Made by a program: the position numbers and the translations under genes
The notes under the pieces: generated by a model
What the model saw: the letters and a program-made list of their open reading frames with translations, nothing else
The model's database searches: none
What the model was told of the DNA's origin: nothing
DNA from: a bacterium
GTDB taxonomy: Bacteria; Armatimonadota; Fimbriimonadia; Fimbriimonadales; Fimbriimonadaceae
Direction: 5' to 3'
Length of the DNA stretch: 64,000 nucleotides
Assembly: GCA_013823945.1 (NCBI GenBank)
Contig: PNMZ01000004.1
Coordinates: 1 to 64,000 of the forward strand
Part shown: piece after piece, positions 20,496 through 61,056 of the stretch
Numbering within the stretch: the stretch's first letter is position 1
How the letters are laid out: every line of letters begins with the position of its first letter

Positions 20496-21542
20496 ATGGA
20501 AAATCGTGGCATCTACGCAATCGTTGGGGTCGTTGTCGGGGCAGGGCTCTTGGGTTATGCGGGATATCGCAACTTTGATATTCAGGCGCGAGAATCCAAG
20601 AAGGAGCTCGTGATGACGAATTCAACGATTGGGGAGCGGACTCAGAATGCGCCCACGGGGGATGAATTGGCGAGTGGATTGCCGAATGATACGGGAGTTG
20701 GGGTTGGAGAATCTCCGGGGAATATTGAAGCACCACAAGGGGGAACTTCGACTCCAAACCGACCCTTTATAGGAGGAGGTGGTGGGATGCGCCGAGGGGG
20801 CGGATCAGTAGCCCCGGGCGAAACGTCTTCGGTTCCAGTTCAGCCGCAACGGGGCGGTGGAGAAGCTCCAGCAAGACCTCGTCCTCAGGGGGGCGGGGAG
20901 ACTCAGATGGGTGAAGTTGACATCTTGGGAATGGGCGGGATGATATTGAATGACCCTAAAGTGGCCACCGAACTAAAGTTGTCAGATGCTCAGAAAAAGC
21001 AGATTTCTGATGCGATGAAGCCGCCAGCGGCTTCGGGCAATGACGGTGAAGGGCTCGAAGGAGTGGCGCGCGGGATGCGTCGTGCTTCGGCGGAATTGGG
21101 GCCGAAATTGCGAACGATTTTGAATGCTCAACAGGTGAAGCGGTACGAGGAATTGGTATTCCAGCAAATTGGTCCGGCTTCGATGATGGGCGATAATTTC
21201 AAGACTCGTTTTGCGATTAGTGATGCGGAAGCGGAGAAAATGCAGAAAATGGCCGAGGCTTTTGGTCAGGAGATGATGGCTTCTTTGCAGGGCGGTGGTC
21301 AAGGTGGCGGTCAGGGTGGCGGAAGACAAATGCCTGACTTGAGCAAAATCATGAAGGCTAAATCGGATTTTGACAAGAAACTTGTGGCCGCTTTGGATGC
21401 TGATTCTCAGGCCAAATGGAAGGCGGCGACAGGGAAACCGTTTACCTTTAGTAACCCGATGGCGGCCTTTGGCGGCATGATGGGTGGAATGGGCGGTGGT
21501 ATGGGTCGACCTGGTGGGCAGGGACGGCGGGGCGGCAATTGA
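20496..21542 (+). CDS. Glycine-rich exported protein with Spy/CpxP-like blocks (paralogue 1)
   Basis: A 348-residue protein with an N-terminal membrane anchor or signal (about 7-24, YAIVGVVVGAGLLGYAGY), a low-complexity Gly/Pro/Arg/Gln region (about 85-145), and a helical domain. It shares three blocks with the protein at 24060: DPKVATELKLSDAQKKQI (about 151-168), LRTILNAQQVKRYEEL, and KWKAATGKPFTFSNP. The first block resembles the LTxxQ repeats of periplasmic Spy/CpxP proteins, which in enterobacteria buffer envelope stress and inhibit the CpxA kinase. Relation to that family is inferred from pattern only. It lies upstream of a two-component system on the same strand. Function is unproven. 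Confidence 0.6.
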   Translation: MENRGIYAIVGVVVGAGLLGYAGYRNFDIQARESKKELVMTNSTIGERTQNAPTGDELASGLPNDTGVGVGESPGNIEAPQGGTSTPNRPFIGGGGGMRRGGGSVAPGETSSVPVQPQRGGGEAPARPRPQGGGETQMGEVDILGMGGMILNDPKVATELKLSDAQKKQISDAMKPPAASGNDGEGLEGVARGMRRASAELGPKLRTILNAQQVKRYEELVFQQIGPASMMGDNFKTRFAISDAEAEKMQKMAEAFGQEMMASLQGGGQGGGQGGGRQMPDLSKIMKAKSDFDKKLVAALDADSQAKWKAATGKPFTFSNPMAAFGGMMGGMGGGMGRPGGQGRRGGN

Positions 21543-21701
21543 CAGAGACTCGTCACTTCGTGTTCAGATTCCGTTCAGCTTAATGGGCTAGATTGATCGA
21601 GTCACCGTATTCCGGCAGCTTGATGAGTTGGTTATAGTCAACAAGAAACAGGATGAGGCAACAATAAAGGCACGAAGAATGCTGTATGCAGGAAAGCATT
21701 G

Positions 21702-23279
21702 ATGGGGACTCGACTTGCGCTCAGAGACATTGATGAAAGGATTTTGCAGCCCCTGCTTCAATCGGTCGTTGCGGATTCTGAAACTGGGATTCTCGTGACC
21801 GATCTCAATCATGCAACGTTGATTTGTAATGAGCGATTTGGTGAAATATGGGGGCTTGATATTGACCTCTCAGTGCGAGAAACGGTTGACGGAGTAAGGG
21901 CTACGGTTCGATCGCGACTGATAGATTTTCAGGCTTGGGAAGAGAACCTAAACCAAGTCTATCGCGACCCGTATTACAAGCAGATTGATCAGTTGGTTTT
22001 GCAAGAACCTCATGCCGTGATCCATCGCTATACGGGGCCACTCGTTGATTCCGGAGGTCTAGTGGTGGGTAGGCTTTGGACGTTTCAGGATCGGACAAGA
22101 TCTGACCGCAAAACGCGAATTTTAGAAGCTTTACACGAGACATCATTGATGATTGATGCTGACCCCAGAAAAGTTTATGCGGGGATTGTGGAGCGGACAA
22201 GCGTGTATTTTGGAACTTGGGTGTTGTTGAGCATTTTGGATGGGGAGATGATGCGCTTTGAGGCTGTAGGAGGGGCAACAAATCCTGCGCAAGGGGTGGC
22301 CGGGAATCCAGTCCAAGATTCTTACTGCCAATTGTGTTTGAAGCAGGATCAAACTTTGCTGATTCAGGATGCTCGGCTGGATGAAGTGGCGCGGAAGATT
22401 CTGCCCTGTTCTTTGGGGCTAACCCGGTATTTGGGGGTTCCGGTAAGGCGACCGAGTGGGGAAGCGATTGGTACGCTGTGCATTTTGGATGGGTTGAGTG
22501 AGCAAGAATTTGACCCGGAAGAGATTCGATTTTTGGAACAAATTGCGTCCCGTATTGGGGGAGAGATTGAGCGCGAGAATCATTTGGCCCAATTGCAATC
22601 GGAGTTGAGCACCGTTCAGAAGAACTTGATTGACCAAGAGAAGTTGGTTGTGACAGGTCAGCTTTCGGCAAGTATTTCACACGATATCCGCAACATTCTT
22701 TCGACTATGCAATTGCAGATGAAAATGCCGGGACTGAGCGATGCGGCGAAGTTAGAGATGATGGATGAGCAGGTTACACGGTTTCGGGTGTTGTCGAATC
22801 GGTTGCTCTCTTATTGCAAACCAAATTCGGGGCATATGGAGCAAGTTGATTTGCATGAGATTTTGCTCTCGGTTTTAGAGATGCTGAATACTCACGCTGA
22901 GCTTGCACAGATTTTGGTTGAGATTGATTTAGGCGCAAGCGATGCATGGATTATGGGTGATCGGGTCAGGCTTGAGCATTTGTTCCTGAATTTGCTTTTG
23001 AATGCAGTTCAAATTGTTGACCAAGGGGGGCGGATTGGAATTCAGACAATTGATATTGGTGAAGATTTGATTCGGGTGATGGTTTGGGATTCCGGACGAG
23101 GGATGTCGCTTGATGCTCAACAAAATCTTTTTGTTCCGTTTCAATCCGGCCGTCCTGACGGAATTGGGCTTGGACTTTACAGTGCAAAGCAGATTATTGA
23201 AATGCACGGTGCTGTGATTCAGTGCGAATCGAAAATCGGAGTAGGGACAAAATTTGTGATGGAGTTTCAGCGATGTTAG
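21702..23279 (+). CDS. Soluble PAS-GAF sensor histidine kinase
   Basis: A 525-residue kinase with no transmembrane helix, so it senses a cytoplasmic signal. A PAS domain covers about 15-130, a GAF domain about 140-290, then a coiled linker and the dimerisation helix with SISHDIRNILS (phospho-acceptor His about 327). The ATPase domain has the N box (HLFLNLLLNAV), G1 (WDSGRGM) and G2 (GIGLGLYSAKQI). The GAF domain has Cys residues (YCQLC and PCSLG) that might respond to redox or a ligand. ATG 21702 has an AGGAAAG site 5 bases upstream; TTG at 21699 is an alternative. It overlaps the response regulator by seven bases. Confidence 0.9.
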   Translation: MGTRLALRDIDERILQPLLQSVVADSETGILVTDLNHATLICNERFGEIWGLDIDLSVRETVDGVRATVRSRLIDFQAWEENLNQVYRDPYYKQIDQLVLQEPHAVIHRYTGPLVDSGGLVVGRLWTFQDRTRSDRKTRILEALHETSLMIDADPRKVYAGIVERTSVYFGTWVLLSILDGEMMRFEAVGGATNPAQGVAGNPVQDSYCQLCLKQDQTLLIQDARLDEVARKILPCSLGLTRYLGVPVRRPSGEAIGTLCILDGLSEQEFDPEEIRFLEQIASRIGGEIERENHLAQLQSELSTVQKNLIDQEKLVVTGQLSASISHDIRNILSTMQLQMKMPGLSDAAKLEMMDEQVTRFRVLSNRLLSYCKPNSGHMEQVDLHEILLSVLEMLNTHAELAQILVEIDLGASDAWIMGDRVRLEHLFLNLLLNAVQIVDQGGRIGIQTIDIGEDLIRVMVWDSGRGMSLDAQQNLFVPFQSGRPDGIGLGLYSAKQIIEMHGAVIQCESKIGVGTKFVMEFQRC

Positions 23280-23977
23280 GGGCAAAAATATTGGTCGTTG
23301 ACGACGATCAATTTATACTGAAGTCGCTTCGAGAATTACTCAACGGTGAGGGTTTGACCGTATTGACGGCACCTAATACGGAGATTGCTTCTGATTTCAT
23401 GAAGAATGAGAATCCGGATCTGGTGATTTTGGATATCAATTTGCCCGGTGAGAACGGAATTTCGTTTTGCCGCAGGGTCAGGCAGAAGAGTCGAGTTCCG
23501 ATCATCATGTTGACGAGTAAAGCGGACGTTGTTGACAAGATTGTTGGTTTAGAGGTGGGAGCCGATGACTACTTGGCGAAACCGTTTGAACCGCGCGAAT
23601 TATTGGCGCGGGTTAGGGCATTATTGCGGAGAGTTTCGGAGTATTCGAGCGACCCTGACGCAAAAGATGAAGAATATTCGGCGGGAGATTTATTGTTGAA
23701 TGCGTCTCAGTTGAAGGTTGAGATTCATGGAGAGAATGTTGAGTTGACCTTGCTTGAGTTTCGGCTCCTTGAGTACTTGATGCAGAATTACGGCAACGTT
23801 TTGTCGCGCGATCAGATATTTGAGCATGTTTGGGGATACGATCAGTCGTTTAGCCAGAATTCGCTTGAGGTTATGATTTATCGTGTGAGGTCGAAGGTTG
23901 AAAAGCGACTGGGATCTCGGTTGATTCATACCGTTCGGGGGTATGGATACCGGGCAGAAATTCGGCCTGGTTCGTGA
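23273..23977 (+). CDS. OmpR/PhoB-family response regulator
   Basis: A 234-residue regulator with an N-terminal receiver domain and a C-terminal winged helix. The acidic pocket (VVDDD), phospho-Asp (VILDINLPG, about D54), Thr/Ser (MLTSK) and Lys (LAKPFEP) are all present. The DNA-binding end has LTLLEFRLLEYL and the HTVRGYGYR wing. The ATG at 23273 lies inside the end of the kinase gene, so the two are co-translated. Its obvious candidate targets are the two flanking Spy-like genes, but no operator has been identified. Confidence 0.93.
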   Translation: MLGAKILVVDDDQFILKSLRELLNGEGLTVLTAPNTEIASDFMKNENPDLVILDINLPGENGISFCRRVRQKSRVPIIMLTSKADVVDKIVGLEVGADDYLAKPFEPRELLARVRALLRRVSEYSSDPDAKDEEYSAGDLLLNASQLKVEIHGENVELTLLEFRLLEYLMQNYGNVLSRDQIFEHVWGYDQSFSQNSLEVMIYRVRSKVEKRLGSRLIHTVRGYGYRAEIRPGS

Positions 23978-24059
23978 AATGAGGGGTTTCCTCATAGTTT
24001 TCTCACTTCGCGTTCTTAGAATGATCATGTAGCTTGCGGGATTCCCAGAGGCAAGCAGC

Positions 24060-24962
24060 ATGAGGAACGAAAAGATGAAAACACAAAAATTACTCACGAT
24101 TGCATTGGCAACGATCGGCATCGTCGGGATGGCAAGCGCGGCATTCGTTGTGAATGGCTCCGCCGGTTCTCAAGCGTGTGACGAGTTGTTTGCTCAGCAA
24201 GCTGGCCCACGCGGTGGTGGACAGGGTGGACCAGGAGGTCAGCAGGGTCAAGGCGGACAGCGAGGCGGAATGCAAATGCGAGGGCCACAAGGTGGACCAA
24301 TGATTCTGCGCGATCCGAAAGTCCAAGTTGAATTGAAATTAACCGACCAACAAAAATCGCAGATTCAGCAAGTCTTGGAAGAAATGCGACCGCAAGGCGG
24401 TCCGGGAGGACAAGGTCAAGGTGGACAGGGCCAAGGCGGCGGTCAACGAGGCCAAGGCGGTCAAGGTCAGGGTGGACAGGGTCAAGGTGGCGGTCAGCGG
24501 GGCCAAGGCGGCCCTGGTGGACAAGGTGGACCGGGAGCGGAGTTGGTTCAGCAAATCGAAGCTAAATTGAAAACGATCTTGAACGAAGGTCAATTCAATC
24601 GGTATCAGCAATTGTCGCTTCAGGCTTCGGGCCCCATGGCGTTCATGCGACCGGATGTTGTCCAAAAATTAGGCATCAGTGAGCAACAGCAACAACAAAT
24701 GCGAGCAATTATGGAAGCCAACCGACCGCCGCGACCGGAACCGGGCCAAGGTGGTCAAGGTGAACCGCCCCAGCCGCCGAACCCTGAGGAAATGAAAGCG
24801 CGCATGGATAAGCTGATGAACGAACTCCTGGGAGTTTTGAATGGCAATCAACGGAATCAGTGGAACCAGATGACAGGAGCGAAATTTGAGTTCTCTCCAC
24901 CCCAGCAGGGCCGTGGCGGTCGGCAGGGCGGGGGCGGTGGTGGCGAACTTTTGAACGCCTAA
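24060..24962 (+). CDS. Gly/Gln-rich exported protein with Spy/CpxP-like blocks (paralogue 2)
   Basis: A 300-residue exported protein. A signal peptide follows either ATG 24060 or ATG 24075 (KTQKLLTIALATIGIVGMAS); both have GAGG sites 8 bases upstream. Gly/Gln repeats flank the block DPKVQVELKLTDQQKSQI (about 84-101), and a near-duplicate Gly/Gln/Arg unit at about 24400-24530 is an in-frame tandem expansion. The blocks LKTILNEGQFNRYQQL and QWNQMTGAKFEFSPP match paralogue 1 in order. The LTxxQ-like motif suggests a periplasmic Spy/CpxP-type protein. It comes 82 bases after the response regulator and ends in a bidirectional terminator. Confidence 0.6.
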   Translation: MRNEKMKTQKLLTIALATIGIVGMASAAFVVNGSAGSQACDELFAQQAGPRGGGQGGPGGQQGQGGQRGGMQMRGPQGGPMILRDPKVQVELKLTDQQKSQIQQVLEEMRPQGGPGGQGQGGQGQGGGQRGQGGQGQGGQGQGGGQRGQGGPGGQGGPGAELVQQIEAKLKTILNEGQFNRYQQLSLQASGPMAFMRPDVVQKLGISEQQQQQMRAIMEANRPPRPEPGQGGQGEPPQPPNPEEMKARMDKLMNELLGVLNGNQRNQWNQMTGAKFEFSPPQQGRGGRQGGGGGGELLNA

Positions 24963-24968
24963 TCAGAC

Positions 24969-25009
24969 AAAAAAAATCCCCCTGATCGCATTGATCAGGG
25001 GGACTTTTT
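24969..25009. terminator. Bidirectional intrinsic terminator
   Basis: An 11-bp stem, tccccctgatc (24977-24987) with gatcaggggga (24993-25003), has eight A before it and T after it, so it can stop transcription from both the 24060 gene and the convergent aquaporin gene. Confidence 0.9.
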
Positions 25010-60169: not shown

Positions 60170-61009
60170 CTAGTGGGAGTGTTTGGTTCCGTTGTGAGTG
60201 TGGGTTGATTCTCCGCCCCTTCGTGGTGGGCCAGGTCGGCGAATGAAGCTCGGATCGGGGGTGCCGACATAGAATCTAGGAATCCAGGGGTAGGAATTTG
60301 TGACGACGTAATAGTAGGTTCCATTTGGGAATTCAGGGGTTATTCCGAACCGTCCATTGGCGGCATCAAGGTCGCCGGATTTGGACTTGTATTCCCAGTC
60401 TTGGACGAAGCTTCCGTCGTATTGTCCCCCGGGGCCGGATGGGCGGGTGCCTGATTTTAACTGGTATGAGCCTTTGAGTTCTGTGAAAGGTGACTTGGGA
60501 TTGAGGGGATCAGTGGGGGCATAGGGGCCGTAAATGGGGAAGCCATCAGCGGCCCAGCCGATTAGTGTCATTTGACTCTTGGATGGGATGAGGGGGCTCG
60601 GAACGCCATGGTAATGGTACGCGCCGGTGGGCTGGACATGGGCGTTGGCGTAGTCAATGCCGAGAGTTCCTTGACCGTTTTGGAATGCTTCGTAATTCCA
60701 GCCGGAACTTCGGTCTCGGTTCCACCATTCGTTGGTGAAGGGGTCGAACGGGACACCGTTTATCGCGATGCCGAAGTTGCTCATGGTGAGAGGGGTGAGC
60801 TTTTCGGGGTTTTCTTTTGGGTTTGCCGGGATGCGGTAGTTGTACGCTTGGGGTTGGATGGAGTTGGGGTTGCCTCGGTTCGGGAATTGGCCGGGGGTGT
60901 GGTTGGGGATGCCGTTAGCGGAGATGTATTTGTATTCGCCGCGAGTTTCGATCGTGATGGTGGGGTTGGCGAGTTGGTGGAGGGCGAGGAAGGTTAGGCT
61001 AGTGAGCAT
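60170..61009 (-). CDS. Secreted YHYH-domain protein
   Basis: A 279-residue secreted protein with the signature YHYHGVP (about 148-154) of the YHYH family and the conserved GWAADGFPIYGP block. A signal peptide covers the first 15 residues (MLTSLTFLALHQLA). The C terminus is His-rich (THTHNGTKHSH), which could bind a metal ion. A TATCAT box lies 6 bases before the ATG. Confidence 0.85.
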   Translation of the reverse strand: MLTSLTFLALHQLANPTITIETRGEYKYISANGIPNHTPGQFPNRGNPNSIQPQAYNYRIPANPKENPEKLTPLTMSNFGIAINGVPFDPFTNEWWNRDRSSGWNYEAFQNGQGTLGIDYANAHVQPTGAYHYHGVPSPLIPSKSQMTLIGWAADGFPIYGPYAPTDPLNPKSPFTELKGSYQLKSGTRPSGPGGQYDGSFVQDWEYKSKSGDLDAANGRFGITPEFPNGTYYYVVTNSYPWIPRFYVGTPDPSFIRRPGPPRRGGESTHTHNGTKHSH

Positions 61010-61015
61010 AGAGGG

Positions 61016-61021
61016 ATGATA
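61016..61021 (-). promoter_or_regulatory. Putative -10 box (TATCAT) of the YHYH gene
   Basis: On the minus strand TATCAT ends 6 bases before the ATG at 61009. Confidence 0.4.
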
Positions 61022-61056
61022 GGGGACGGCAGTGAGGAAATTGTGAGCAATAAGAG

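Follow-up and report, generated by a model that had tools for sequence, protein, structure and literature searches.

The spy2 gene (24060..24962, + strand), which encodes a predicted secreted Spy/CpxP-family protein (LTXXQ), is predicted to be controlled in trans, as a CpxP/Spy-type effector, by a membrane two-component system encoded on contig 3, while the soluble two-component pair next to it would control a separate regulon; we put the probability of this reading at about three in four. In the window (the whole stretch of 64,000 nucleotides that was analysed, positions 1 to 64,000 of contig PNMZ01000004.1), the enclosure of the soluble pair by two Spy-like genes is best read, judging from the promoter and gene-order comparisons below, as a juxtaposition of two regulons.

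The four genes of the locus are all present on the + strand, where a sequence-only reading of this DNA had placed two Gly-rich paralogues around a kinase and an OmpR-type regulator. The first gene, spy1 (20496..21542), encodes a Gly-rich protein of 348 aa with an N-terminal hydrophobic anchor (residues 5-23) and a duplicated Spy-like unit. It is followed by the soluble histidine kinase P0003 (21702..23279; PAS-like, GAF, HisKA and HATPase_c) and by the response regulator P0004 (23273..23977; recognition helix NSLEVMIYRVRSK), which is of the OmpR/PhoB type and whose ATG overlaps the stop of the kinase gene. For the kinase, ATG 21702 is the most likely start codon rather than TTG 21699, where the open reading frame opens; for spy2 it is probably ATG 24075 rather than ATG 24060, since the sister genome has TTG in place of ATG 24060 and AGGA precedes 24075. 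A strong intrinsic terminator (24977..25003, +) marks the end of the spy2 transcript. Between the regulator and spy2 lies a weak, terminator-like hairpin, ATGAGG-GGTTT-CCTCAT (23979..23995, +), which overlaps the first half-site of the spy2 box. A sigma-70 scan of the region stayed at background.

In the soluble kinase, GAF (8.3e-12) and HATPase_c (9.7e-19) were over the Pfam cut-off and HisKA was below it. The protein had been described as a PAS-GAF kinase without a membrane helix; the GAF domain was recovered and no helix passed a Kyte-Doolittle scan, while the PAS domain is suggested by weak profile matches only, at the N-terminus, to the PAS domains of BvgS and DosP. A membrane kinase with a sensor and HAMP was found on contig 3 and not beside spy2. 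There, the OmpR-type regulator P0005 and the kinase P0006 (transmembrane segments 14-32 and 190-208, an extracytoplasmic sensor, HAMP, HisKA and HATPase_c) are orthologous to spy-linked pairs and have no spy neighbour; the orthologues of P0006 are the spy-linked kinases of other genera. The P0004-type and P0005-type regulators form separate clades (support 99/99), and the recognition helices differ between the two groups (NTVNFHVSSLRKK and NSLEVMIYRLRQK). The sensor domains of the spy-linked kinases (P0006 residues 33-190; L067, L076 and L101) are Gly/Pro-rich just after the first membrane helix, like the linkers of the Spy-like proteins.

The spy2 promoter carries the box CTCAT-N6-CTCAC-N10-TAGAAT (23991..24022, +), which matches the promoter box of the unlinked membrane system. 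In the genus, spy2 promoters share the direct repeat CTCA-N7-CTCA, with TAGAAT after a further N11 spacer, and the promoter of the contig-3 regulator has an equal layout (CTCACGAGAAACTCATGGGATTGGCCTAGAAT). CTCA-N7-CTCA is also present in P0005-family regulator promoters inside and outside the genus; a point against control of spy2 in trans is the variant second half-site (CAAA) in the regulator's own promoter in four genomes (G004, G007, G003 and G005). The strict pattern CTCAY-N6-CTCAY-N10-TANNAT has three matches in the 3.16 Mb genome, before the contig-3 regulator, spy2 and a gene for a YHYH-family predicted secreted protein with a His-rich C-terminus (60170..61009, -), and in G006 it stands at the same three genes. 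The YHYH gene, predicted to be co-regulated with spy2, is preceded by the second box of this type in the window, CTCAC-N6-CTCAC-N10-TATCAT (61016..61047, -). Across the genus, 12 of 13 strict matches fell in orthologous regulator, spy2 or YHYH promoters, and reversed controls gave 0 matches in its eight genomes; these genome-wide counts are pattern searches, and about 0.1 match per genome is expected by chance (our own arithmetic from the pattern information). A matrix trained on seven regulator promoters, all from outside the genus, ranked the YHYH promoter first and the spy2 promoter third among about 128,000 window positions, with the soluble kinase and spy1 promoters at background. Binding of P0005 to the CTCA boxes is inferred from these sequence matches.

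In the family outside the genus, eight strict matches were found versus one in the reversed control, and the eight include four P0005-type regulators, a YHYH gene, a di-haem peroxidase-like gene and a Gly-rich CotH-like gene. The boxes before the last two (L235 and L237, in G017 and G069), whose genes were named by eye from sequence as di-haem cytochrome peroxidase-like and CotH-like, hint at a wider regulon. At the regulator promoters of L198, L199 and L204, TTCA replaces CTCA in the half-sites, and the recognition helix reads TVDVYV, TVDAFI or TVDVFV instead of TVNFHV, which hints that helix and box co-vary. Literature searches on LTXXQ together with Spy/CpxP, on DUF4394/DUF4331, and on YHYH together with regulators found no papers.

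The spy2 box is retained in G004, a member of the genus with the order spy1 - spy2, although this genome lacks the soluble pair, so that it works like a natural deletion test. Because the CTCA box belongs to the other regulator clade and stays in G004, the adjacent pair is not regarded as the likely regulator of spy2. The earlier proposals of control of both spy genes by the enclosed pair, and hence of a signal that has to pass through the cytoplasm, were not supported: the box at spy2 is the autoregulatory box of the unlinked membrane HAMP pair, and upstream of spy1 neither a CTCA nor a TTCAG box was found.

The soluble pair has a box of its own before the kinase gene, TTCAG-N6-TTCAG-N10-TAGATT (21563..21594, +), which is one of two perfect matches to the strict TTCAG pattern in the genome, the other lying before a DUF4331 gene. 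In the genus, four of the five genomes that have the soluble pair carry this pattern and none of the three that lack the pair does, and spy2 promoters gave no TTCAG match. The box is informative only with the -10 element in the pattern: GTTCAG pairs with one mismatch gave 22 matches against 23 in reversed controls, which is background. TTCA-N7-TTCA repeats also occur in three other genera; in two of them they precede the ferritin-like gene, and in one they precede the kinase gene. At L205:6732-8034, two adjacent ORFs behind a perfect TTCAG box match the N- and C-terminal portions of DUF4331. At L158:5952-8035 (contig 1 of the present genome, about 239,900), a triple repeat GTTCAA/GTTCAG/ATTCAG in 11-base steps sits in the gap that separates a PD40 lipoprotein gene from a divergent DUF4394 PEP-CTERM gene; this repeat may be a further target of the soluble pair, since in other genera the soluble kinase has DUF4394-type genes as neighbours.

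The present genome (G000) is closely related to Armatimonadetes bacterium Uphvl-Ar1 (G006, CP021423.1; spy2 97% identical), which was assigned to Fimbriimonadaceae by its authors (PMC5629041). The order spy1 - kinase - regulator - spy2 was observed in G000, G006 and G007, with an additional ferritin-like gene in G006, and kinase - regulator - spy2 in G003 and G005. Linkage of the soluble pair to spy genes was seen within one genus only, in five of eight genomes; in seven other genera no spy gene lies within about 6 kb of its orthologues. In several of these genera, the gene just upstream of the soluble kinase encodes a ferritin-like lipoprotein or is of the DUF4394 type. The cassette of many other genera is regulator - membrane HAMP kinase - spy, or spy - regulator - kinase, and in the family and order a Spy-family gene lies at most 3.5 kb away at 17 of 31 P0005-type regulator loci (two of the 17 depend on divergently oriented or weak matches), with only about five OmpR-type regulators per genome. 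These gene orders support a tie between the Spy-like proteins of the order and two-component systems. In Uphvl-Ar1, frameshifts seem to affect three genes, those of the soluble kinase and of both members of the membrane pair (L061, L191 and L208), and the ferritin-like gene stands as an insertion before the kinase. Because this genome is a PacBio RSII (SMRT) assembly (PMC5629041), the frameshifts were rejected as biology and are likely errors of long-read assembly.

Both regulators might act on spy2, the adjacent one by way of the NTCA half-sites or read-through and the remote one by way of its cognate box, so that cytoplasmic and envelope signals would meet at one gene; we regard this as doubtful. 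The kinase and spy2 boxes have the common architecture NTCA-N7-NTCA-N11-TANNNT and few differing bases, so cross-binding of the two regulators is possible on sequence grounds. A caveat to the two-regulon reading is that only 82 bp separate the regulator from spy2; as the hairpin between them is weak, read-through from the kinase-regulator operon is also possible, and the adjacency has been retained in five genomes of the genus. However, the half-sites are consistently distinct (GTTCAG vs YCTCAY), in step with the different recognition helices, and a TTCAG match occurs at no spy2 promoter. The reading with two separate regulons is preferred.

By sequence profile and predicted structure, spy1 and spy2 are Spy/CpxP relatives, as had been suggested before. 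The two proteins are 31% identical over 132 aa (BLASTP, E=2e-9) and have the three shared blocks described earlier in the same order, DPKVATELKLSDAQKKQI, LRTILNAQQVKRY and QAKWKAATGKPFTFS in spy1 and DPKVQVELKLTDQQKSQI, LKTILNEGQFNRY and QRNQWNQMTGAKFEFS in spy2. The spy2 protein scored 36.8 bits against LTXXQ (PF07813; cut-off 24.3), whereas the Pfam LTXXQ search of the whole genome returned nothing. No match to PF07813 was obtained for spy1, and its homology to spy2 is the sole ground for placing it in the Spy/CpxP (LTXXQ) family. A profile built from 17 family members ranked E. coli Spy highest among PDB entries (1.3e-5); CpxP matched more weakly. The AlphaFold2 core models are helical (pLDDT 75.6 for spy2 and 77.4 for spy1). 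With Foldseek, 10 of 11 matches of the spy2 model were Spy or CpxP, at E above 1, and the spy1 model was uninformative by itself. In a second structural comparison, the best matches of spy2 were Spy and CpxP, with Z of 5.4-6.7 over 71-83 residues (Spy 6.7 over 77), and spy1 matched Spy (6.7) and the VirG-like STV protein (6.3). The structure predictions thus point to Spy/CpxP or a related protein, with the matches of both models reaching only the C-terminal half; Z values of 5.4-6.7 alone are weak for helical proteins, and the sequence profile to Spy forms a second line of evidence.

The Spy-like unit occurs again in the N-terminal half (probability 98.7%, E 2e-16; hhalign with profiles of the two halves), and in spy2 the two tandem units have Gly/Gln-rich linkers between them. 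By analogy with Spy, we infer an internal pseudo-dimer from tandem duplication, in which the two fused units could give a Spy-like cradle in one chain. Judged from hydrophobicity, the N-terminal hydrophobic segment is signal-peptide-like in spy2 and anchor-like in spy1. Neither sequence contains histidine; His-based metal sites are therefore absent from both, and ZraP/CnrX-like metal sensing by spy2 was rejected. A five-row family profile search found three related loci, one of them in Uphvl-Ar1, and no relative was found in viral contigs. On contig 2 of the present genome, a third Gly-rich LTXXQ-like protein is encoded directly behind an apparent pilus/secretin operon with an 807-aa secretin-like protein (L081:5949-9120).

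A structural role of the paralogues at the surface or in a matrix is unlikely, one in which the Gly/Gln-rich stretches are the working part and the Spy-like helices a mere scaffold. Long low-complexity Gly/Gln/Pro segments are found in all family members, and the modelled pLDDT is low there, as such a role would suggest, but linker length is highly variable among the members while the helical LTxxQ units are conserved, and the family profile reaches Spy and CpxP in the PDB. Least probable of all is a single envelope-stress module in which the enclosed pair responds to a cytoplasmic signal and directly controls both paralogues, a reading which the same-strand adjacency in G000, G006 and G007 and the kinase - regulator - spy2 order in G003 and G005 would favour, but which is opposed by the box of the other clade at spy2 and its persistence in G004, the lack of a box at spy1, the soluble-pair orthologues without a spy neighbour in seven other genera, and TTCAG boxes that precede the kinase and other secreted-protein genes and not spy genes.

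In the preferred two-regulon reading, envelope disturbance, the presumed stimulus, would activate the membrane kinase P0006, and phosphorylated P0005 would bind the two CTCA half-sites, which are spaced by one helical turn and lie directly before the -10 element, raising expression of its own operon, spy2 and the YHYH protein. The spy2 protein would hold envelope proteins that are unfolded and, like CpxP, may dampen the activity of the kinase; chaperone activity and feedback are both carried over from Spy and CpxP. The soluble PAS/GAF pair would control a second, independent regulon through the TTCAG box, comprising its own operon, DUF4331 genes and, in relatives, the ferritin-like lipoprotein, and would have come to lie beside spy2 in one genus. 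More tentatively, there may be a Fimbriimonadales envelope-stress regulon with a single-chain pseudo-dimer Spy, in which spy drifted beside the soluble pair in one genus and two signals may meet; its members would be the membrane kinase pair, Spy and YHYH, and in relatives possibly the CotH-like protein and the di-haem peroxidase.

The locus would thus offer a Cpx-like regulon with a defined predicted binding box, open to testing, in a little-studied phylum, a Spy-type protein built of two fused units, and a clear case of conserved adjacency to a two-component system pointing to the wrong regulator. ZraP and CnrX are metal-linked CpxP-family proteins tied to signalling systems; spy1 and spy2 belong to the same superfamily and are likewise linked to signalling systems, but are without histidine metal ligands. 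E. coli Spy is a Cpx/Bae-controlled, ATP-independent periplasmic chaperone that forms a dimeric cradle (PMC8144458). The paralogues resemble it in the LTxxQ helix pairs, the link to OmpR-type two-component systems and perhaps secretion, and differ in having two units per chain with Gly/Gln-rich linkers, where E. coli Spy has one unit per chain and dimerizes. CpxRA-CpxP consists of a membrane kinase, an OmpR-type regulator and a periplasmic accessory protein with an inhibitory effect on the kinase (PMC4985592), a role that spy2 may share. Similarly, in many relatives a CpxP/Spy-family gene adjoins the genes of a membrane HAMP kinase and its OmpR-type regulator, and here a common box, with predicted binding, precedes the regulator (P0005) and the accessory gene (spy2). 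Unlike in CpxRA-CpxP, the accessory gene is unlinked from the system that probably controls it, and the predicted regulon comprises three promoters.
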